In this document: piece after piece, positions 9,336-62,570 of the stretch
How the letters are laid out: every line of letters begins with the position of its first letter
Position numbering within the stretch: position 1 is the first letter of the stretch
Assembly: GCA_902774035.1 (NCBI GenBank)
Contig: CACYHA010000004.1
Location: 17,104-81,103, forward strand
DNA length: 64,000 bases
Direction of reading: 5' to 3'
Source: Oscillospiraceae bacterium
GTDB taxonomy: Bacteria > Bacillota > Clostridia > Oscillospirales > Acutalibacteraceae
Made by a program: the position numbers and the translations under genes
The notes under the pieces: generated by a model
What the model saw: only the letters and a program-made list of their open reading frames with translations
What the model was told of the DNA's origin: nothing
The model's database searches: none

Positions 9336-9377
9336 ATTATAAACCAAAAATTAGAAACGCACAACGTCACAAGTGAT
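9336..9377 (-). promoter_or_regulatory. Promoter with upstream dyad for the secreted repeat protein
   Basis: Reading leftward, the dyad ATCACTTGTGAC (9377-9366) is followed after one base by TTGTGC (9364-9359), 17 bases, and TATAAT (9341-9336). The -35 box is poor, as at activator-dependent promoters. The same dyad in the same position precedes the kinase pair at 12148-12189. Confidence 0.6.
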
Positions 9378-10361
9378 AAAATGTGTCAAAAATATGTTAA
9401 TATGTCGTAGAATTTTTGCCGCTGTTTTTATGCAAAGTGCACAAAAGAGGCAAAAATCAGTTTTTGCTGTTGGGATCAAGGGCAATTCCAACCACCCGGG
9501 CGTGAACGGCCAGCTCCGTGCGGCAAGGTAGGCTTCGATGGCAAGCAGGCTCTGGCCGAGGTCGTTGTGCAGCCGCGTTTTTGCCGAAAGCACCTCGCGT
9601 TCGCGCACGATGCGTTCCATATTGTTCAGATAGGTGCGCATCTGCCGGTTCACCGCCGCCAGACGCTCGTTGCGCTGACGCAGCTCGCAAATGTCGCGGT
9701 AACGCTCCGTTACGTCATAGGCGATCGTTTCCGTGAGCGGCTTGTTGTCCATTGCCACCTGCCGGCGCTTGAGGTGCCACGTTTCGCCGTTCGGCAGGCA
9801 CAAAAAGGTGTTGTTCGCGTCTTCGTCCACGGTGCAGCCCGGCAGCAGGTCCCGCTTTTTCAGCCGTTCATCCAGTCGCACGATATCTGTGACGCCCGTG
9901 CCGAAAGCCTCGTTGCAGATGCTTTGCATCCGGTTGTTCACCAGCTTCGGAAAACCGTCCGGCAAGCTGTAGCATACGCCGTCGGGGAGATGATCCAGCC
10001 CCTCGCAGACGGACCGCGCCGAAAGGGTCTGTCGGCTCAACCGCACCAGACGCAGATGCATCACGATGACCGCCGCCAGCAGCAACCCCATGTAAAGCGC
10101 AATCAACCAGAGCGGCAAAGAAAGGATACGGTTCATAAAAGGCAACAGTTCCATATTTCTCTGAATAAGAACAATGTTGATCGCCATGGTGGAAGACGGA
10201 AGAATGCTCAAAAATGCCACGAGCAAACCGATCCGGAAAATCCGTCTTGCCGTTCGGTATCTGAACGCGCGTACCGTGCAAAGCAAGGCGCCCATGCAAA
10301 GCAGATACAAGCCAAAAGCAATCGCGCGAACCCAGCCAAAGGGCAAATCATTCAAGCACAT
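9351..10361 (-). pseudogene. Truncated membrane histidine kinase (HisKA_3 type), ATPase domain lost
   Basis: The first ~275 residues read as a sensor kinase. Several membrane helices are followed by a PAS-like segment (LPNGETWHLKRRQVAM), a coiled coil, and an H-box of the NarX/DesK class, TRLHNDLGQSLLAIEAYL. After that point the frame continues for about 60 residues with no kinase-like sequence and runs into the promoter of the next gene. The whole HATPase domain, with its N, G1 and G2 boxes, is missing. A deletion with its junction near 9530 would explain this. The start at 10361 has a good GGAGGGG site. A response regulator gene, normally adjacent, is also absent. Calling it a pseudogene is inference. 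Confidence 0.7.
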
Positions 10362-10364
10362 AGA

Positions 10365-12105
10365 TCAGACGCCCCCTCCGACATTTTTCGATTTCAAAAC
10401 AAAGCGGATCTCTTCGCTGTCGGTCTTGCGCTTGACCGTCTCCACGGTGTGCTTGAGACTGAGAAAGTCCGCTTGCGACATTGCCTGCGGCTGAAGCGCG
10501 ATCTCCAAAACGGCATCCAGAACGTGGGCTTGTTTTCGGCTGACAACGGCCTCAACCGCCAAAAGCATGGGCAGCACCTGCTCGATCACAGACTCAAACG
10601 CTTCATACACCGCCACGGCGCCGCGGGCCGAAACAGTCAGCCCCGGCGCGACCTTGACCTCACAGGAGATTTCCGAAAGGCGCAGCGCCTTTGCCGATTC
10701 TTCAAAGCAAAGCCGCAGCTCTTCTCCGTTCAAATACGGGTGGGTTTCCGCCTGCAGGAGCAAATTGCTGCGGCGCTTGCAATAGGCCAGCAGAACCGCC
10801 ATTTTTTTCAGCGCGGCGCAAAAGGCCTCCTCCTCGCCGGGAAGATGCTGCACCCATGCGCTGAGCTGATTCAACTGCGGGCGCAGGGATTCCGTCACAC
10901 TGTCGAGCAGACGGGTCTGTTCGGCGGTCTTTTTGCGGCTCTCGTCAATCTCGGCGGAAAGACACATCATGGCGTTTTCTTCCTTGAGATAGTCGGCGGT
11001 ATCCTCCAGCTCCTCCTTCAGACGACGCAGCTCGGAGATGTCCTCCGTCCAATAAAACCAGCCGCCGATGACCGGCCGCACCTTGAGCAGCGTGTCGCCG
11101 TCGGGCAGAACAAGGGTGCCGTTCCTTGCTTTTTCGATCTGCTCAGGCTTAGGACGGACGCCGGCGGCAGAGGTCTGCCGCGCGTGAAACGTATCGTCCG
11201 CGAGACCTGCGTTCAGCGAAGAAACGGCAAAGATCGCCGGGTAATCGTTGTTGGAAACGATCACCCGCGCAATGACAAGGCTTTCCCAAAGCGCAATCGC
11301 GCTGATGCAAATGAAATCGCTCATTGCGAAAGCCTTCTGGAAGAAGGTTCTGTTCTGGCCGGGATAGGCATAAATCAGCGAGTAGATCACCATCAACAGA
11401 AGAATCAGGCTGGGCAGCCAGAACGTTTTCAGGAGCCGGCGGTTGAGAGAGGAGCGGATCATCATCCCGATCACGATCAAAAGACCCAGCACGATCCAAC
11501 CGGACGCCAGATAAATAGAGGATCCCGTGGGTATATTCGCCTACCCAGTTTTCAATTCCGTTCGTGAACCGAAACGTAAGCTGATGCAGGTCGTTCGTAA
11601 AAATGCCCGCCGAAAGCAGCGCCGGGGGCAAAAAAAGCCAATACCACTTTCTGGAGATTTTTTAGTCGTCGGCTTTGCCGAAATACAGGGCGGCATAAAA
11701 CAAAAACAGCGGCCCGAAGGTCAAAGGGATATAGTAGGCATACCAGAGATACCGTGCAACGGCGCCGTCGTGCGTCACAAAGTTACATTTCGCAACATGC
11801 AAAAGGCTCAGCAGAATGAAAAGCACCGCCAACCGACCCATGTTGTTTCGCATCTGTTTTTGCGGGAACCGTCTGTGGACGCTGAGATACCACTGCATAT
11901 AGACAACTTCAATGATGAGGGCGGACAAAACGCCAAAGTGCAGAACCTTCCATATCATCCACTCATCAAAGTGTAAAGCAGTCCAAAGAGGCCATTCGTT
12001 CAGGGCTCTATCCGAAATATGGTCAAACGTGTTCATCAAGCCGGCGCATAAAAGCACCGAAAGATTCATCAGCAGCTTGCGCAGCGACTTCTTATTAAAA
12101 TCCAC
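10365..12105 (-). pseudogene. Membrane sensor protein of a kinase pair, broken by a nonsense codon and a frameshift
   Basis: Read through two lesions, this is one sensor protein of about 580 residues. It has an N-terminal 7-helix membrane region, a cytoplasmic sensor domain (TLVLPDGDTLLKVRPVIGGW), a long coiled coil (YLKEENAMMCLSAEIDESRK) and a degenerate C-terminal kinase-like part without clear ATP-binding boxes. The start is GTG at 12105 after GGGAGG. Lesion 1 is an in-frame TAA near 11662 between GKADD and KISRKWYWLF. Lesion 2 is a +1 shift near 11512, where one extra T separates NWVGEYTHGILY from YLASGWIVLGLL. Sequence on both sides remains typical, so decay looks recent. Either lesion could be an assembly error, but two together favour a true pseudogene. 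Confidence 0.72.
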
Positions 12106-12147
12106 GGGTTCACCTCCCGGCGCGCAGCTTTTCTCTTTTTCGGGTTC

Positions 12148-12189
12148 ATTATATCCCAGAAAAACCTGCTTGTCTACGTCACTAGTGAC
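12148..12189 (-). promoter_or_regulatory. Promoter with upstream dyad for the kinase pair
   Basis: Reading leftward, the perfect palindrome GTCACTAGTGAC (12189-12178) is followed after one G by TAGACA (12176-12171), 17 bases, and TATAAT (12153-12148). The arrangement is the same as at 9336-9377. A site centred just upstream of the -35 box is typical for an activator such as a NarL-type response regulator. Confidence 0.65.
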
Positions 12190-12313
12190 TAATTTTCGAC
12201 ACTTTGAAGAAAAAATTGAAACAAATTCAGGCGTGCGCGCCTTGTCCGTTGCCGAAAAGTGCCATCCGACGATCTGCGTCACAAAAACTTTTGCCGAAAA
12301 TCCTTGTACCCTC

Positions 12314-12369
12314 TTGAAAACCGGAAAAAAATGTGCTATAGTTAGCTTGAGCTAATTAGCGAACGCTAA
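12314..12369 (+). promoter_or_regulatory. Strong promoter overlapped by tandem 14-bp operators for the methyltransferase operon
   Basis: TTGAAA (12314-12319) and TATAGT (12337-12342) are 17 bases apart. Directly over the start site lie two abutting palindromes of form TTAGC-N4-GCTAA. The first is TTAGCTTGAGCTAA (12342-12355) and the second TTAGCGAACGCTAA (12356-12369). Their position would block transcription, so a dimeric repressor (MarR or TetR type) is expected. No such gene lies within the operon. Confidence 0.75.
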
Positions 12370-12417
12370 TCCACTTCCAGATGCAGATGCAAAAACAATG
12401 AAAAAGGAGGAACCCTT

Positions 12418-12924
12418 ATGAGCATTCCCGTCATTCTGATCGAAATGGCCGTTTTTGCGGCGCTGTTTACCGCTATCGTCTTCACGGCATACAGGGGCGA
12501 CAGGAAATACAGCCCCGCCGGGATCAGCAATTATCCGCCCGATATTCAGGCGGAATACTTCAAAACGCACGCGCCGGTCGAGGTTTCCTACCGGTCGAAA
12601 AAGGTTCTGTTGACCAAAGGCTTCGGCGTGCTGCTGTTTACCGTGATCCTGCTGGTCTGCGCCCTGATCGCGGGCGCGAAAACCTTTTGGCAGGGCTTCG
12701 GTCTGGCGTTCGGCCTGATGGTGTGGATCGGCGCCTACGACACGTTCTTTCTGGACTGGGTGCTGTTTGCGCGGCTCCCCATGTTCCGGCTGGAGGGAAC
12801 GGAGCACATGGACAAGGCATATCATCAAAAGTGGTTTCACCTGAAAGGCATGCTGTTTCCGGGAATCGTCTTTGCGCTGATCCCGGCCGCGGTCGTCGGG
12901 CTGCTGATCCTGCTGATCCGATAA
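12418..12924 (+). CDS. Four-helix membrane protein, first gene of the methyltransferase operon
   Basis: This is an integral membrane protein of 168 residues with helices near 4-24, 64-86, 92-112 and 145-167. It opens a tight eight-gene operon and starts after AAGGAGG. I do not recognise the family. The segment GAYDTFFLDWVLFARLPMF matches KAYDVLFFDFFLL in the last gene of the operon, in the same position relative to the helices, so the two are paralogues. Two related membrane proteins could form a heteromeric complex that anchors or feeds the encoded enzymes. That is inference. Confidence 0.8.
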   Translation: MSIPVILIEMAVFAALFTAIVFTAYRGDRKYSPAGISNYPPDIQAEYFKTHAPVEVSYRSKKVLLTKGFGVLLFTVILLVCALIAGAKTFWQGFGLAFGLMVWIGAYDTFFLDWVLFARLPMFRLEGTEHMDKAYHQKWFHLKGMLFPGIVFALIPAAVVGLLILLIR

Positions 12925-12937
12925 GAGAGAGATCGAC

Positions 12938-13576
12938 ATGAACTACATCGGAATGCCCATGGGTATGTGGGCGCTTTACAGAACATCCTTTCAATCGCAT
13001 CTGGTTTCCGTTCTCGGGTTCAGCGAGAAAGCGGCGAAAAGGATTGCCGCCGCAGCAAAGCCGAAGTATAAAGAGATCATTGCAAAGCTGCCGGAATTTG
13101 AAAAAGAAGACCGCTTCAAAATGAATATCGTGAACTGCGCCATGTTCGCGTCGTTCCTGCTGTGCATGGAACAAAAGCCGGACGTGGAACGGCTGACGAC
13201 GTTTTACGCCCGCGCCATGATGAACGCGCCGACGCGCGTGTTCTGCCGGTTGGAAGGCAGACAAAAGTTCAGCGCCAAAGACATTGCCGGCATGAAAGCG
13301 ACTGCCGCGCTGAACGCAGCGGATCGCAACCCGTATTCATGGAACATGGCGATTCTCCCCTACGCCGACGGCAGCGGCTATGAGGCGCGTTTCACGAAGT
13401 GCGGCATATGTACGCTGATGCGGGAACTGGGACTCTATGCGTTCGTTCCGGCAATGTGCCGTCTGGATTACGACATGACGGCGGCAGGCGGCACGGCGGA
13501 TTTTGTGCGCGAATACACGCTGGCTTCCGGCGGGCCCTACTGCGACTGCGGATACAAAAAGAAAGAAGGAACATAA
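12938..13576 (+). CDS. ATC hydrolase family protein (L-2-amino-thiazoline-4-carboxylate hydrolase-like)
   Basis: The 212-residue product matches the ATC hydrolase family. The known member opens the thiazoline ring of L-2-amino-thiazoline-4-carboxylate on the way to L-cysteine. Family hallmarks seen are the segment FTKCGICTLMRELGL, a downstream CRLDYDM, and the C-terminal GGPYCDCGY close to the usual GGxxCDF ending. There is no signal peptide. It lies 13 bases after the membrane protein and 1 base before the HMA gene. Clostridial homologues are often found with SAM methyltransferases, so the true substrate may be another thiol- or ring-containing compound. The family call is fairly sure, the reaction is not. 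Confidence 0.75.
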   Translation: MNYIGMPMGMWALYRTSFQSHLVSVLGFSEKAAKRIAAAAKPKYKEIIAKLPEFEKEDRFKMNIVNCAMFASFLLCMEQKPDVERLTTFYARAMMNAPTRVFCRLEGRQKFSAKDIAGMKATAALNAADRNPYSWNMAILPYADGSGYEARFTKCGICTLMRELGLYAFVPAMCRLDYDMTAAGGTADFVREYTLASGGPYCDCGYKKKEGT

Positions 13577-13577
13577 G

Positions 13578-13832
13578 ATGACAAAAACAACGCTCAAAAT
13601 TGACGGCATGATGTGCGGCATGTGCGAAGCGCACATCTGCGACACGATTCGCAACAGCGTGCCCGACGCGAAAAAGGTGAAAGCTTCACACACGAAAGGC
13701 GAAGCGAGCTTTTTAACGGAGACGGTTCCGCGCGAGGATGTGCTCAAGGCAATGATCGACGCCACGGGCTACACATTCGTTTCCATGACGAGCGAACCCT
13801 GTGAAAAGAAAGGCTGGTTTCATCGAACATGA
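13578..13832 (+). CDS. HMA-domain metal-binding protein, CopZ-like
   Basis: This small cytoplasmic protein (84 residues) with a heavy-metal-associated fold carries GMMCGMCEAHI, the GMxCxxC metal-binding motif, near residues 10-20. A beta-alpha-beta-beta-alpha-beta pattern follows, and a Cys occurs in the tail (SEPCEKKGW). The ATG at 13578 is preceded by AGAAGGAAC. Its last codons overlap the start of the methyltransferase gene by 4 bases, so translation is coupled. Such proteins usually pass Cu(I) to a P-type ATPase or regulator, but neither is nearby. A metal or metalloid link to the operon is plausible. Confidence 0.88.
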   Translation: MTKTTLKIDGMMCGMCEAHICDTIRNSVPDAKKVKASHTKGEASFLTETVPREDVLKAMIDATGYTFVSMTSEPCEKKGWFHRT

Positions 13833-14671
13833 ATCAAAATACGGCTTACCACATCGAAAAAAACTCCGTACAGGAAACGCTGGTGATCCCGCTGCTCGGC
13901 CGTGTGGTCTGTTCCGAGCGGTTTCCGCAGTTATTCTCCGACCCCACGGCAAAGCGTATCTGCGATTCGCTGGACTATGACTTTGCAGCCAAACGCAGGC
14001 TGATGGAATCCCCTGCCGGACTGTTCGGCGCACTGGAGGTTGCCCAGCGCCAGTATGACCTGATGCAGGAGGTACTGGACTATCTGAAAGCCCATCCGAA
14101 GGCGGCGGTCGTCAACCTCGGCTGCGGACTGGACGACACCTTCACCCGCGTGGACAACGGCAAGTGCAAGGGTTACAACATCGACATGCCGGACGTGATC
14201 GCCGTGCGGAATGATCTTCTGCCCGCCGGGGAGCGCGAACAGAACCTCGCCTGCGATCTCAACGACTTTTCGTGGATGGACAGGATCGATGCGGCGGAAG
14301 GCGCGGTCCTCTTTGCCGCCGGGGTGTTCTATTACTTCAAGACGGAACAGGTCAAAACCCTGTTTTGCGAAATGGCAAAGCGGTTCCCCGGCGCGGCCCT
14401 CACGTTTGATTCCTGCAACCGGCGCGGCGCAAAGATGATGATGCGCACCTGGCTCAAGGAAGCGGGGATCACCGACGTTGGCGCGTTCTTCTCGCTCGAA
14501 GATGAAGCCGCACTGCGCACGTGGAGCGCCGCCTTCGCTACGGTCACGTCCAAAAGCTATATGCGCGGCTACCGCGACATCTACCGTGACGTCGGCGAGT
14601 TCCACAAGCTGATGATCCGCTTTTGCGACAAGCTGGTTCGGATGAAAATCGTCAAGATTCAATTTGCATAA
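13829..14671 (+). CDS. Class I SAM methyltransferase, LCMT/TcmP-like (MT 1)
   Basis: The 280-residue product belongs to the leucine carboxyl methyltransferase-like family (PF04072 type). The long helical N-terminus ends with an all-alpha cap (FSDPTAKRICDSLDYDF). It is followed by SAM motif I as VNLGCGLDDTF, then NIDMPDVIAVR and the acidic strand EGAVLFAAGVFYYF. Members of this family O-methylate carboxylates or polyketide-type hydroxyls. It starts inside the HMA stop (ATGA overlap) and ends 12 bases before the next methyltransferase. The substrate is unknown. Confidence 0.85.
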   Translation: MNQNTAYHIEKNSVQETLVIPLLGRVVCSERFPQLFSDPTAKRICDSLDYDFAAKRRLMESPAGLFGALEVAQRQYDLMQEVLDYLKAHPKAAVVNLGCGLDDTFTRVDNGKCKGYNIDMPDVIAVRNDLLPAGEREQNLACDLNDFSWMDRIDAAEGAVLFAAGVFYYFKTEQVKTLFCEMAKRFPGAALTFDSCNRRGAKMMMRTWLKEAGITDVGAFFSLEDEAALRTWSAAFATVTSKSYMRGYRDIYRDVGEFHKLMIRFCDKLVRMKIVKIQFA

Positions 14672-14683
14672 GGAGTGTTTTTC

Positions 14684-15472
14684 ATGAAACCCGATTACAA
14701 AAACTGGATGCCGAAAGGTATGGTTTTGACCGCTGCAGCGGCGACCGCCGTTTTTCTGCTGCTGTTTGTCGTCTTCGGATGCACAGGCATTCTGTCCGGC
14801 ACGCTGAAAACCGTGTTGTTCATCGTCTTTCTTGTCGGCACGGTGATCGGCCTCGGCGTGACGCTTTGGATGGTGCTGATGTACCGCGCGTTTTCCTACA
14901 ACGGCAAGCGGCAAATGTCGCGCCAGATCATTGAAGGGATCGCAAAGCATGTGCGGCTCCCGGACGGCGGCAAAGGCCTCGACGTGGGCTGCGGCAGCGG
15001 CGCGCTGACCATCGCCGTTGCCAAGCGCAACCCGAACGCGCAGATGGTCGGACTTGACCGCTGGGGCAAGGAGTATGCCTCGTTCAACAAGCCGCTGTGC
15101 GAAAGCAACGCCAAAGCCGAGGGCGTCTGCAACACGTCCTTTGTGCAGGGCGACGCGACAAAACTCGCTTTCCCCGAAGGGAGCTTTGACGCGGTGGTGA
15201 GCAATTATGTCTATCACAACATCCCGACGAAAGACCGGCAGGCGCTGCTGCTGGAAACGCTGCGCGTTTTGAAAAAGGGCGGCGCGTTCGCCATCCACGA
15301 CATTTTTTCAAAGTCGAAATACGGCGATATGCGGGCGTTTGTTCAAAAGCTGAAAGCTATGGGTTATGAGCAGGTAGAACTGATCGACACCACCGACGGC
15401 ACCTTTATCACAAAGACGGAATCCATCTGGATGGAGCTGGCCGGCTCGGCGCTGCTCGTCGGCAGAAAGTGA
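14684..15472 (+). CDS. Membrane-anchored class I SAM methyltransferase (MT 2)
   Basis: This 262-residue enzyme has two N-terminal transmembrane helices (about residues 15-35 and 43-68) and then a complete methyltransferase domain. Motif I is LDVGCGSGALTIAVAK, the acidic loop is MVGLDRWGKEY, and motif IV is FDAVVSNYVYHNI. The start at 14684 has AAGGAGTG upstream. The anchor places the active site at the inner membrane face, which suggests a lipid-like or membrane-delivered substrate and fits the two membrane proteins of the operon. Confidence 0.85.
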   Translation: MKPDYKNWMPKGMVLTAAAATAVFLLLFVVFGCTGILSGTLKTVLFIVFLVGTVIGLGVTLWMVLMYRAFSYNGKRQMSRQIIEGIAKHVRLPDGGKGLDVGCGSGALTIAVAKRNPNAQMVGLDRWGKEYASFNKPLCESNAKAEGVCNTSFVQGDATKLAFPEGSFDAVVSNYVYHNIPTKDRQALLLETLRVLKKGGAFAIHDIFSKSKYGDMRAFVQKLKAMGYEQVELIDTTDGTFITKTESIWMELAGSALLVGRK

Positions 15473-15479
15473 GGAAACC

Positions 15480-16106
15480 ATGGGACTGCTGCACAACTTT
15501 TTTAACCAGACAAGAAAGCCCGAGGGCTTCCTCGGCAAGCTGATGGTCGGCGGCATGAACAGCGGGCACGCCGCGGTCGCGGACTGGGGCATGGCGTTTC
15601 TTGACGGTCTGCAGCCGCAGAAAATCCTGGACGCAGGCTGCGGCGGCGGGCGCAACATCGGCGCGCTGCTCGAGCTTTATCCGGCTGCAACTGGCGTCGC
15701 CGTGGACTATTCGCCGGTCAGCGTGGAAAAGAGCAAGCAGCACAACAAGGCGCTGATCGACGCCGGACGCTGCCGCGTGATACAGGCAGACGTTTCCGCC
15801 CTGCCGTTGGAACGCGATTGCTTCGATCTTGTGACGGCGTTTGAAACGGTCTATTTCTGGCCGGGCCTGCCGCGCAGCTTCGCCGAAGTCGCGCGGGTGC
15901 TGAAAAACGGCGGCGCGTTTCTGATCGTCAACGAATCCGACGGCACCGACAAAACGGCAAAGAAGTTTGAATCCATCATCGACGGCATGGTGTGCTACAC
16001 GGCGCAGGACATCGAAGCCGCGCTGAAAGCGGCGGGCTTTGGCGACATCCGCGTGTTCAGGCACGAAACCAAGCCGTGTATGGCTGTGCTGGCAAGAAAG
16101 GGATGA
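15480..16106 (+). CDS. Class I SAM methyltransferase (MT 3)
   Basis: This is a 208-residue soluble methyltransferase of the UbiE/Methyltransf_11 type. Motif I is ILDAGCGGGRNIGALLEL and is followed by VAVDYSPVSV, the CFDLVTAFETVYFWP motif and the ARVLKNGGAFLIVNE strand. It lies 7 bases after MT 2, with GTGAGGAAACC as the binding site. No substrate-recognition insert can be named. It is one of four methyltransferases in a row that clearly differ from one another, so this is a pathway rather than simple duplication. Confidence 0.87.
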   Translation: MGLLHNFFNQTRKPEGFLGKLMVGGMNSGHAAVADWGMAFLDGLQPQKILDAGCGGGRNIGALLELYPAATGVAVDYSPVSVEKSKQHNKALIDAGRCRVIQADVSALPLERDCFDLVTAFETVYFWPGLPRSFAEVARVLKNGGAFLIVNESDGTDKTAKKFESIIDGMVCYTAQDIEAALKAAGFGDIRVFRHETKPCMAVLARKG

Positions 16107-16110
16107 AGCC

Positions 16111-16806
16111 ATGACATGCAAAGAGCAAATCAAAAGCGCTTACAAGCTGACCGGCGGCCACGCGAGCTTTTACGACGGCATGATGACCTATGCCACCTTG
16201 CCGGGCAAGGCGATCTGCCGCCTTGTCTGGAACATGGACGGCGAAAAGAATCTGCGCTATGTGGAACAGGCGCTTTCCGGCGTGCCGGAGGATTTCGGCG
16301 GCAAGCTGCTGGAGGTGCCGGTGGGCACGGGCGTTCTGACCATGCCGGTCTACAAAGAGCTCCCGAATGCGGACATAACCTGTCTGGATTATTCAGCAGA
16401 AATGATGGCGGCGGCAAAGCAAAAAGCCGCCTTTGCCGGAATCGGGAACATCACGTTTTTACAGGGCGATGTCGGCGCGCTGCCGTTCCCGGACGAGCAC
16501 TTTGACATTGTGCTGTCGCTCAACGGTTTTCACGCTTTTCCCGATAAGGACGCCGCCTACCGCGAAACCTTTCGGGTGCTGAAACCGGGCGGCGCCTTTT
16601 GCGGCTGCTTCTATATTCAGGGCGGCTGCAAACGGACCGATTGGTTCATCCGGCATCTGTATGCGCCGAAGGGCTTTTTTACCCCGCCGTTTGAAACGCA
16701 GGCTTCGCTCAGAGCGCGGTTGCAGAAAATGTATCAGGACGTAACCGTAACGGCAGTGGAGGGCATCGGCTGCTTTTGCTGCAAGAAGGAGGTTAAATCA
16801 TGCTGA
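16111..16806 (+). CDS. Class I SAM methyltransferase (MT 4)
   Basis: This 231-residue Methyltransf_11-type enzyme has motif I LLEVPVGTGVLTMPVYKE, with Pro-Val in place of the usual Gly-Cys/Ala-Gly opening. The acidic residue sits in CLDYSAEMMAAAK, and motif IV is FDIVLSLNGFHAFPD. The C-terminus is Cys-rich (CGCFYIQGGCK and GCFCCKKEV), which could bind metal or be redox-active. The start at 16111 is 4 bases after the MT 3 stop, and the last codons overlap the next gene by 7 bases. The substrate is unknown. Confidence 0.85.
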   Translation: MTCKEQIKSAYKLTGGHASFYDGMMTYATLPGKAICRLVWNMDGEKNLRYVEQALSGVPEDFGGKLLEVPVGTGVLTMPVYKELPNADITCLDYSAEMMAAAKQKAAFAGIGNITFLQGDVGALPFPDEHFDIVLSLNGFHAFPDKDAAYRETFRVLKPGGAFCGCFYIQGGCKRTDWFIRHLYAPKGFFTPPFETQASLRARLQKMYQDVTVTAVEGIGCFCCKKEVKSC

Positions 16807-17300
16807 CAACAATCATCCTTTCCCTTGTGATGATGGCGGGGCTTTTCCTGCTGCTGTATGCATGGGTCGCTCTGATCCAGAATCCGCGCTTTTTCTCCAC
16901 CGCGCCAAAGGAGGTGCAGGCGGCGGTGCAGCCGAAGCCGGAACGGTTCCGGGGCGCGCACTTCTTCGGCTGGAAGCTGGCGATCATTGCGATCGTGCTG
17001 ATGGGCGGCGCCGTTTTCTTCGGCTGCTGGGATGGCATCCAAAACGGTTTCAGCTTCGGCCAGTTCTTCCTGCGCTTTCTCATCATGCTGCTGGGGCTGA
17101 AAGCGTATGACGTGTTGTTCTTCGACTTTTTCCTGCTTTGCCGCTCCGGTTTTTTTCCGCGCTATTATCCCGAGGTGAAGGAACACCTCGGGCCGCATCT
17201 GTTCGGTTACAACTGGAAAACCCACGTGCTGACCGGTTCGCTGAGCATTGTGGGCGCTGCGGTCTTGGCGAGGATCTGCGTATCGATTGCGAGCGGCTAA
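16800..17300 (+). CDS. Four-helix membrane protein, last gene of the methyltransferase operon
   Basis: This is an integral membrane protein of 166 residues, paralogous to the first gene of the operon. Helices lie near 3-25, 60-80, 88-110 and 145-163. The shared element is AYD-x2-FFD-x2-LL in the third helix, followed by an Arg- and Tyr-containing loop. It overlaps MT 4 by 7 bases and is preceded by AAGGAGG. No clear terminator follows; the next ~245 bases up to the tRNA terminator contain no gene that I can support. Confidence 0.78.
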   Translation: MLTTIILSLVMMAGLFLLLYAWVALIQNPRFFSTAPKEVQAAVQPKPERFRGAHFFGWKLAIIAIVLMGGAVFFGCWDGIQNGFSFGQFFLRFLIMLLGLKAYDVLFFDFFLLCRSGFFPRYYPEVKEHLGPHLFGYNWKTHVLTGSLSIVGAAVLARICVSIASG

Positions 17301-17545: not shown

Positions 17546-17631
17546 TGGCGGAGAGTTAGGGATTCGAACCCTAGGTACTTTCGTACACAGCATTTCGAGT
17601 GCTGCACCTTCGACCACTCGGACAACTCTCC
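17546..17631 (-). tRNA. tRNA-Ser (anticodon CGA)
   Basis: The class II tRNA folds with acceptor GGAGAGT/ACTCTCC, D arm, anticodon stem CAGCA/TGCTG with loop CTCGAAA (anticodon CGA), a long variable arm (TGTACGAAAGTACC) and a T arm with TTCGAAT. Discriminator G and an encoded CCA end follow at 17549-17546. It reads UCG codons. It lies between the methyltransferase operon and the secreted-protein genes. Confidence 0.95.
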
Positions 17632-50364: not shown

Positions 50365-50375
50365 ATCGATAATAA

Positions 50376-50634
50376 CGCGATGAAAAAGAGAGTAGGCTCC
50401 ATCGACGCACAGAGAGAAGCGGCCCCGGCTGCAAGCCGCTTTGCACGAGAGAAAGCTGAAGTTCACTTTGGAGCGGCGCGGCTGAAACGAAAGCGAAAGT
50501 AGGCTGCGACGGGTCATCCCCGTTAACGGATGCAGGAGTGTTTGCTTCGCGAAAGCAGGAACCAGGGTGGTACCGCGGAATTTTGTGTAATTTCGTCCCT
50601 GTGGCTTTTCAGTCACAGGGCGTTTTCTTTTTGA
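50376..50634 (+). ncRNA. T-box riboswitch, phenylalanine-specific
   Basis: The leader has a long stem I with a specifier loop GAAGTTCAC, where TTC (50462-50464) is a Phe codon. The T-box proper AGGGTGGTACCGCGG lies at 50564-50578. A competing terminator follows, with stem CCCTGTG (50597-50603)/CACAGGG (50614-50620) and a T-rich tract. Uncharged tRNA-Phe should favour read-through into pheS. The specifier matches the downstream gene. The 5' end is estimated. Confidence 0.93.
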
Positions 50635-61520: not shown

Positions 61521-61525
61521 AAACC

Positions 61526-61677
61526 TATCTTCAGGGCGAGGTGAAATTCCTCACCGGCAGTGTTTGGCAGCAAAAGCGGCCATCAGCCTGCGAACCGGGA
61601 CATCCCGGCCGATTCGGTGCGATTCCGAAGCCGACGGTGCGCGGCAGAGCCGTGCGACAGTCCGGATGGAAGAAGAA
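61526..61677 (+). ncRNA. FMN riboswitch (RFN element)
   Basis: Conserved elements are in order: ATCTTCAGGGCGAGGTGAAA at the 5' end, CTCACCGGCAGT, the middle stem-loops, and CAGTCCGGATGGAAGAAG at the 3' end, which closes P1. It precedes a riboflavin transporter gene, as expected. Confidence 0.95.
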
Positions 61678-61694
61678 GCACAACCCGTGTTTTT

Positions 61695-62471: not shown

Positions 62472-62570
62472 TTCCTTATTCAGAGCAGCTGAGGGAACAG
62501 GCCCTGTGAAGCTCGGCAACCTGCCAACGGCAAGGTGCCAAATCCTGCGGTATTGACCGAAAGATAAGGT
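62472..62570 (+). ncRNA. SAM-I riboswitch (S-box)
   Basis: Core elements are TTATTCAGAGCAGCTGAGGG, CCTGTGAAGCTCGGCAACC, GGTGCCAAATCCTGC and GAAAGATAAGG at the closing P1. It is placed before SAM synthetase. Confidence 0.95.

Follow-up and report, generated by a model that had tools for sequence, protein, structure and literature searches.

An eight-gene operon of an Oscillospiraceae bacterium, probably an inhabitant of the gut or rumen, carries a double operator of a type that is shared with iron-uptake genes. The operon occupies 12418-17300 on the + strand of a 64,000-nucleotide stretch of DNA (the window: positions 17,104 to 81,103 of contig CACYHA010000004.1, assembly GCA_902774035.1), and its genes, named g1 to g8 in order, encode two paralogous membrane proteins (g1 and g8), an ATC hydrolase family protein (g2), an HMA protein (g3) and four predicted methyltransferases (g4 to g7). 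Judging from sequence, control of the operon by a metal, most likely iron, through a DtxR-type protein is very probable, and expression is likely switched on by iron shortage, because the same operator stands at feoAB, its core is that of the EqbA operator, and the genome has a DtxR-type repressor gene of its own. The role of the enzymes is more tentative: somewhat short of an even chance, they may modify or dismantle organic iron ligands, as a mosaic piece of an iron-shortage regulon.

A double operator behind the promoter

The earlier note on this DNA had placed a strong promoter before the operon. The site matches the consensus at 10 of 12 positions (TTGAAA-17-TATAGT); such sites number 8 in 11 kb, compared with 4.0 (standard deviation (sd) 2.1) in shuffled sequence, so the promoter is weak evidence when taken alone. 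That description did not include the double operator at 12342-12369, two abutting 14-base palindromes directly behind the -10 element:

12314..12342, + strand: promoter-like site, -35 TTGAAA, 17-base spacer, -10 TATAGT (12337-12342), TG before the -10
12342..12355, strandless: putative operator 1, TTAGCTTGAGCTAA (TTAGC-TTGA-GCTAA), beginning on the last base of the -10
12356..12369, strandless: putative operator 2, TTAGCGAACGCTAA (TTAGCG-AA-CGCTAA), abutting operator 1

Both operators contain an exact TTAG-N6-CTAA, a pattern present at 2 sites in the window against 0.16 expected, and none of 100 shuffles reached 2.

Regulator and probable iron control

The source genome encodes one regulator with a PF02742 domain (G000:C6), a 124-amino-acid (aa) open reading frame (ORF) with Fe_dep_repress (PF01325), Fe_dep_repr_C and the motif DACKIEH. 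The Cys in DAC-x-x-EH is shared by this regulator and all 9 members of the DtxR-type cluster found in related loci, whose representative has both Fe_dep_repress and Fe_dep_repr_C; it is presumably the Cys position of Fe2+-type regulators. DtxR-type genes are divergent from feoA, with sites in between, in four related loci (L012, L015, L044 and L090), and in a genome of the same family (G035) a flavodoxin-DUF3793 pair and a DtxR-type gene point away from each other across two sites (L137:4104-5700).

TTAG-N6-CTAA is the core of the operator of EqbA, an Fe2+-responsive DtxR-type repressor; the operator core is given as GTTAGATGTATCTAAC in the available part of PMC3672683. According to the same part of that paper, Fe2+ and Zn2+ strengthened the gel shifts by EqbA, Mn2+ did so to a smaller degree and Fe3+ and Cu2+ did not, deletion of eqbA raised the eqbE transcript 13-fold, and a Cys common to EqbA and DtxR was linked to the Fe2+ response (PMC3672683).

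These features bear on an idea of the earlier note, that the operon serves to detoxify a metal(loid) or a thiol-reactive compound, in which case the methyltransferases would do the detoxifying. The HMA protein, the P1B-ATPase and ZIP genes of related loci, and weak matches of g4-g7 to arsenite methyltransferase models (far under the model cut-offs) would suit such a role. However, the operators and the regulator are of the type known from iron-uptake genes: repression at plentiful Fe2+ would shut the operon down in a metal-rich cell, and feoAB and DUF3793/flavodoxin have the site as well. The idea was therefore not borne out and, given this direction of control, ranks last among the alternatives, as a very improbable one. 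The results speak neither for nor against a thiazoline substrate, which the note had also suggested.

Distribution of the operator site

Relatives of the operon were collected by scanning the genome contigs of 84,980 species genomes with a six-sequence g2 alignment, which yielded 413 stretches; the best 80 (L012-L091) were taken as loci, each covering up to 10 kb on either side of the g2 relative. The loci were selected by g2 only and are partly dependent: L019, L051 and L069 come from members of the genus that had already been sampled, L020 and L021 belong to one bin, and L059 and L060 have identical gene order, hence are also not independent. Their carriers are labelled mostly as gut or rumen Clostridia, Lachnospiraceae, Oscillospiraceae or Ruminococcaceae, and Erysipelotrichaceae/Solobacterium; three labels that do not fit (Chloroflexi twice, Succinivibrionaceae once) could stem from wrongly assigned bins.

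In these loci (1.18 Mb in all), 136 TTAG-N6-CTAA sites were found, distributed over 58 of the 80, compared with 7.7 sites (sd 2.7, maximum 13) in 20 first-order Markov simulations, and among spacings of 0-14 only 6 stands out (next best 12). Leader genes were defined by an upstream gap of at least 70 bases, and a site was counted within 300 bases upstream. By this measure, sites precede feoA (8/8), DUF3793 (12/14), HMA (5/6), feoB (4/5), DtxR-type (4/6), ABC (ATP-binding cassette) transporter (7/12), MT7 methyltransferase (10/19) and ATC (10/34) leaders, and 25 of 310 unclassified genes.

The source assembly (2.3 Mb, 85% complete) contains 7 sites (29 for a reversed control pattern): 2 at the operon, 3 before feoA and 1 before feoB of a feoA-feoA-feoB unit (L099), and 1 before an oxidoreductase gene. 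The latter site lies roughly 30 bases ahead of a 631-aa ORF carrying NADH_4Fe-4S, Fer4_20 and Pyr_redox_2 domains (L100:4005-5934), and this Fe-S/pyridine-nucleotide oxidoreductase is a possible further member of the regulon. Across 59 genomes searched, the number of sites ranges from 1 to 37 per genome. One member of the same genus without a g2 match (G012, 85% complete) has an HMA-ZIP pair alone behind a similar abutting double site (L136:3080-3675) and four sites at its feoAB; the HMA-ZIP unit is perhaps a core onto which other genes were added. A TetR regulator, the first guess from the palindromes, was rejected, since the site stands at feoAB beside DtxR-type genes and 0 of 5 TetR leaders have it.

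Operon layout and gene products

All junctions between the eight co-directional ORFs are overlaps or gaps of at most 13 bases: gaps of 13 (g1/g2), 1 (g2/g3), 7 (g5/g6) and 4 bases (g6/g7), overlaps of 4 (g3/g4) and 7 bases (g7/g8), and, between g4 and g5, a gap of 12 bases with the ATG at 14684 or of 3 with the GTG at 14675. The eight-gene operon proposed earlier, with its named families, is upheld by these junctions and by Pfam matches of g2-g7 above the curated family cut-offs, which were applied to g1-g8:

12418..12924, + strand: g1 (mem1), 168-aa membrane protein, without a Pfam family above cut-off
12938..13576, + strand: g2, 212 aa, ATC_hydrolase PF14196, 72.3 bits against a cut-off of 28.1
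13578..13832, + strand: g3, 84 aa, HMA PF00403, 27.0 against 24.8 bits, GMMCGMC
13829..14671, + strand: g4, 280 aa, LCM PF04072, 42.2 against 22.3 bits, predicted S-adenosylmethionine (SAM) methyltransferase
14684..15472, + strand: g5, 262 aa, Methyltransf_11, 74.1 against 21.2 bits, GTG start at 14675 possible
15480..16106, + strand: g6, 208 aa, Methyltransf_11, 72.3 against 21.2 bits
16111..16806, + strand: g7, 231 aa, Methyltransf_25/11-type, 79.8 against 21.2 bits (Methyltransf_11), EVPVGTG motif I
16800..17300, + strand: g8 (mem8), 166-aa membrane protein, four hydrophobic peaks, paralogue of g1, likewise without a Pfam family above cut-off

The claimed kinship of g1 and g8 was confirmed by blastp (E 0.002) and by profile-profile comparison (probability 98%, E 2.8e-14), and a D-x4-D motif (D108 and D113 in g1) is invariant in an alignment of 56 sequences (g1, g8 and 54 relatives). 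The helices attributed to the membrane proteins fared less uniformly: the hydropathy script gave the expected four peaks in g8, three instead of four in g1, and one instead of two in g5, where the hydrophobic stretch is N-terminal and was read as a membrane anchor. The four methyltransferases stand by their Pfam scores and are less distinct from each other than had been described, g5-g7 being related to one another (30-42% identity across some 100 aa); g4 falls below the cut-off of the narrower TIGR00027 model (34.8 against 93.55). Motif I of g7 is indeed unlike the standard one, as a family trait and not through decay (the EVPVGTG type is present in 38 of 62 cluster members), and its Cys-rich tail is variable among the 25 tails viewed of these 62. 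The GMxCxxC motif of g3 is kept in 27/27 members of its cluster.

In g2, C155, C174, D177 and R191 are invariant in 50 aligned family members and C202 is conserved in at least 90%. A sequence search of the PDB with the ATC-family profile returned only two chance-level matches (E 0.54 and 0.65), and with g4 none; relatives of g2 were not found in the viral contigs searched. Divergent ATC-family paralogues in related clusters are 14-23% identical to g2, which speaks against one fixed substrate. One ATC-family protein (L008:12857-13672, minus strand) has an N-terminus resembling the transposase domain DUF772 (21.9 bits, cut-off 23.1), possibly a fusion or the scar of a mobile element.

In the available part of PMC5847659, the MetOD1 domain is said to resemble HNOB, V4R and ATC hydrolase domains, with three conserved Cys common to it and the latter two; the accessible part of PMC8401325 provisionally assigns tolI, from the tolyporphin cluster, to ATC hydrolase. 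By analogy with HNOB and V4R domains, whose ligands are haem or other molecules, the ATC family may bind aromatic or tetrapyrrole ligands, and the substrate of the operon could be a tetrapyrrole (haem or a product of chlorophyll breakdown), which ATC proteins would bind, methyltransferases and hydrolases would alter at its side chains, and from which the metal would be recovered. An hhalign comparison of the ATC family with 8 of 13 V4R hits gave an alignment that falls on the Cys region; it is weak (probability 6%, P 0.006; 0.3% for a membrane-family control), the source genome has no V4R match, and a haem-opening enzyme was absent from the recurrent neighbour clusters and from the 25 commonest of 119 Pfam families among unclassified ORFs of the related operons walked. 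A tetrapyrrole substrate is thus considered improbable.

A shuffled gene pool

The related loci share a pool of genes, whose ORF clusters occur in the following numbers of the 80 loci: ATC 79 (the ORF choice missed the ATC gene in L078), MT7 45, LCM 43, mem1 37, MT5 35, mem8 35, the alpha/beta hydrolase abh6 29, MT6 28, ZIP 28, HMA 26, metallo-beta-lactamase fold (MBL) 22, ABC 19, DUF3793 17, DUF6796 16, ApbA 15, DUF6110 12, P1B-ATPase 11, DtxR-type 9, FeoA 8, PEMT 6, flavodoxin 5 and TetR 5. Further ATC-family clusters occupy 13, 12, 6 and 4 loci. The linked pool with membrane and metal-binding proteins that had been suggested is supported by both the operon and these loci, and homologues are not scattered singly: at least one of the seven other window families is present in 72 loci and at least four in 35, with all seven in 3 and none in 8. 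Linkage is conserved in the sense that pool members recur together, but they do so in shuffled order and in varying combinations. Among 83 stretches followed along the strand of the ATC gene, the commonest gene steps were ATC-HMA (17), abh6-ATC (12) and LCM-MT7 (11), followed by MT5-MT6, HMA-ZIP and ZIP-LCM (10 each). The closest relative (L007/L019, 73-89% identity over shared genes) has its genes in the window order apart from an added ZIP and a missing MT7; the contig begins ahead of ATC, and next in line are a TTAG-N6-CTAA site, a protein with 63% identity to L014:16373-16942 (Trep_Strep, PF09605), and then two ABC genes.

Within the 59 genomes, g2 was found in six (the source genome included), all of its own genus, for which the search covered 34 genomes. 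A class sample of 391 genomes, again including the source, contained the g2 type in 5 (E ≤1e-30) and LCM in 29 (E ≤1e-15), both together only in the source genome, G105 (adjacent) and G422 (on another contig, 34% identity), so that g4 lies beside g2 in only 2 of the 5 g2-bearing genomes. The four other g2 loci of this sample (L110-L113) all have sites and pool members; the single site of L112 lies some 5 kb away from HMA. LCM (g4) was rejected as a marker of the cluster, as LCM stretches without g2 hold few pool members. In one of these (L121), TTAG-N6-CTAA lies within the LCM coding sequence, at another place than in L118-L120. The available part of a study of Faecalibacterium prausnitzii reports, for one co-expression module, a STRING term named after ATC hydrolase with 7 of 14 genes (PMC9674144), lending weak support to co-expression of such genes.

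The composition of the pool also bears on whether the operon spares iron, in that a membrane lipid or redox cofactor would be methylated so that the cell runs on less iron, alongside flavodoxin, which can replace ferredoxin. The operator common to DUF3793/flavodoxin, the membrane segments in g1, g5 and g8, and PEMT/ICMT-type methyltransferases in 6 of 80 loci are consistent with this. The patchy distribution of the g2 type (5/391 class genomes, 6/59 near relatives), however, agrees more readily with an accessory substrate than with a core lipid, and sparing of this kind seems decidedly improbable.

Transport genes and the search for chelator-building enzymes

At least one ABC gene of a cluster akin to the YbtPQ/IrtAB importers is present in 19 of the 80 related loci, and none is in the window; nor does the operon contain an ABC half-transporter pair. 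Among the half-transporters listed, one ABC subunit of L060 matched YbtP best (1.3e-94, 320.9 bits, one stretch) and its partner YbtQ (1.5e-85, 291.1 bits), while a third ABC protein from another genome (L110) matched YbtP and then IrtA; these ranks hold for half-transporters, fused eukaryotic transporters standing higher by whole-chain score, in which the two halves are added up. As a control, an ABC protein from the source genome matched 8wcw_B best and had TM288 among its better half-transporters.

No backbone-building enzyme, nonribosomal peptide synthetase (NRPS) or other, was detected by Pfam among the eight genes of the operon. In the related operons that were walked, 12 distinct unclassified ORFs of more than 620 aa contained no NRPS, polyketide synthase (PKS) or NRPS-independent siderophore synthetase (NIS) domain, showing glycosidase, FeoB, V-ATPase or STAND-type domains or none, and for 143 unclassified ORFs of 100-620 aa no NRPS, PKS or NIS was among the 25 commonest of 119 Pfam families. 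These negative results count against the possibility that the pool tailors and releases a metallophore of the organism's own, with methyltransferases, ATC proteins and hydrolases finishing the chelator and the ABC pair secreting or re-importing it. Such a pathway would agree with the operator core and regulator type, shared with the equibactin locus (where a YbtPQ-like ABC pair is likewise present), as well as with the many tailoring-type enzymes and the membrane anchor of g5; on balance it is judged unlikely. Hydrolases, methyltransferases and reductases are abundant in related loci, and together with the lack of a building enzyme this favours the alteration of an existing molecule over the making of one.

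Proposed function

We therefore prefer, with low confidence and at somewhat less than even probability, the view that an iron ligand is modified or taken apart by these enzymes, not assembled by them. Under ample Fe2+, an EqbA-like short repressor of the DtxR/IdeR type with bound Fe2+ would occupy 12342-12369 and block transcription; with falling iron, the operon would be switched on jointly with feoA-feoA-feoB. The ATC-family protein, the four methyltransferases and the two membrane paralogues might then act on an organic ligand that is imported or met at the membrane, and cutting or methylation of this ligand would release iron to be handled by the HMA protein and Feo. Shuffling of the gene pool between genomes would reflect differences in the ligands. 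A more specific version, in which foreign thiazoline or phenolate siderophores are imported via YbtPQ-like transporters, azolines are opened by ATC proteins and phenols or carboxyls are methyl-capped, the pool being a horizontally shuffled island of anaerobic gut commensals whose gene set in each genome fits the ligands met, is speculative and taken as a whole improbable.

Several observations weigh against the ligand-modifying role within an iron regulon. Both window sites deviate from the full GTTAG...CTAAC consensus, in which the flanking G is present in 92% of sites and the C in 83%: operator 1 has the left G and lacks the right C, and operator 2 has neither. Exact sites are absent from the stretch covered in 22 of 80 loci, and are found at only 1 of 8 leaders of mem1, the first gene of the window operon, 2/14 of LCM, 0/11 of MT5, 1/14 of ZIP, 1/9 of mem8, 0/6 of MBL, 0/8 of abh6 and 0/5 of P1B; the low rates at mem1, LCM, ZIP and MT5 imply that the site marks certain operon starts and not every pool gene. 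Eight LCM stretches without g2 (L115-L122, from seven genomes, close matches) have few pool members, and in L118-L120 the sole site lies inside the LCM gene at the same place; sites inside the LCM coding sequence (L118-L121) are probably a coding coincidence. Zn2+ or Mn2+ could be the controlling metal, and the ATC-V4R profile match is weak. In the source genome no close YbtP-like ABC protein was found (best 32% identity, assembly 85% complete), so that ligand uptake by this organism is not supported. Moreover, in S. equi the iron-toxicity phenotype persisted after the YbtPQ-like eqbKL had been deleted, and a role in secretion is considered in that study (PMC3672683, available part); by analogy, transport could run in either direction.

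Comparison with known systems and significance

The nearest described system is the equibactin locus eqbA-N of Streptococcus equi ICESe2 (PMC3672683, as far as the available part goes), which is alike in its short DtxR-type repressor and the GTTAG-N6-CTAAC core before the operon and has a role in iron acquisition; its EqbKL resemble the YbtPQ-like ABC pair of related loci, not of the window. It differs in having NRPS, salicylate ligase and other building enzymes, whereas the window operon has none and adds four predicted methyltransferases, an ATC-family protein, an HMA protein and two membrane paralogues. The feoA-feoA-feoB genes of the same genome share the site type, but Feo is a transporter and the window operon consists mostly of enzymes. 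With ATC hydrolase itself, g2 shares the Pfam family name, and hydrolysis of a thiazoline ring by g2 is suggested by that name only. No description of the combined gene set was found among the titles and abstract openings listed in searches of open-access literature, which left subscription papers and preprints largely outside; the families are known, as are the regulator and operator type from eqb.

Iron acquisition beyond Feo seems little described for anaerobic gut and rumen clostridia in the literature searched, and the searchable operator outlines what is probably an iron regulon of these groups, which are largely uncultured. It provides one testable condition, iron shortage, for ATC paralogues, DUF6796, DUF3793, the new D-x4-D membrane family and LCM-type proteins. 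If the enzymes do act on chelators of other microbes, this would be a new mode of iron competition in the gut and would reveal a role for the widely annotated 'ATC hydrolase' family.

Other features of the window

Upstream of the operon and divergent from it are three ORFs without a Pfam match (9351-12282, minus strand), the first of which (9351-10361, minus strand, containing HNDLGQSLL) may, judging by this motif, be a histidine kinase cut short. Downstream, a tRNA is located at 17549-17631 on the opposite strand. Rfam matches in the window comprise a T-box leader (50371-50603), an FMN riboswitch (61523-61681) and a SAM riboswitch (62473-62570).

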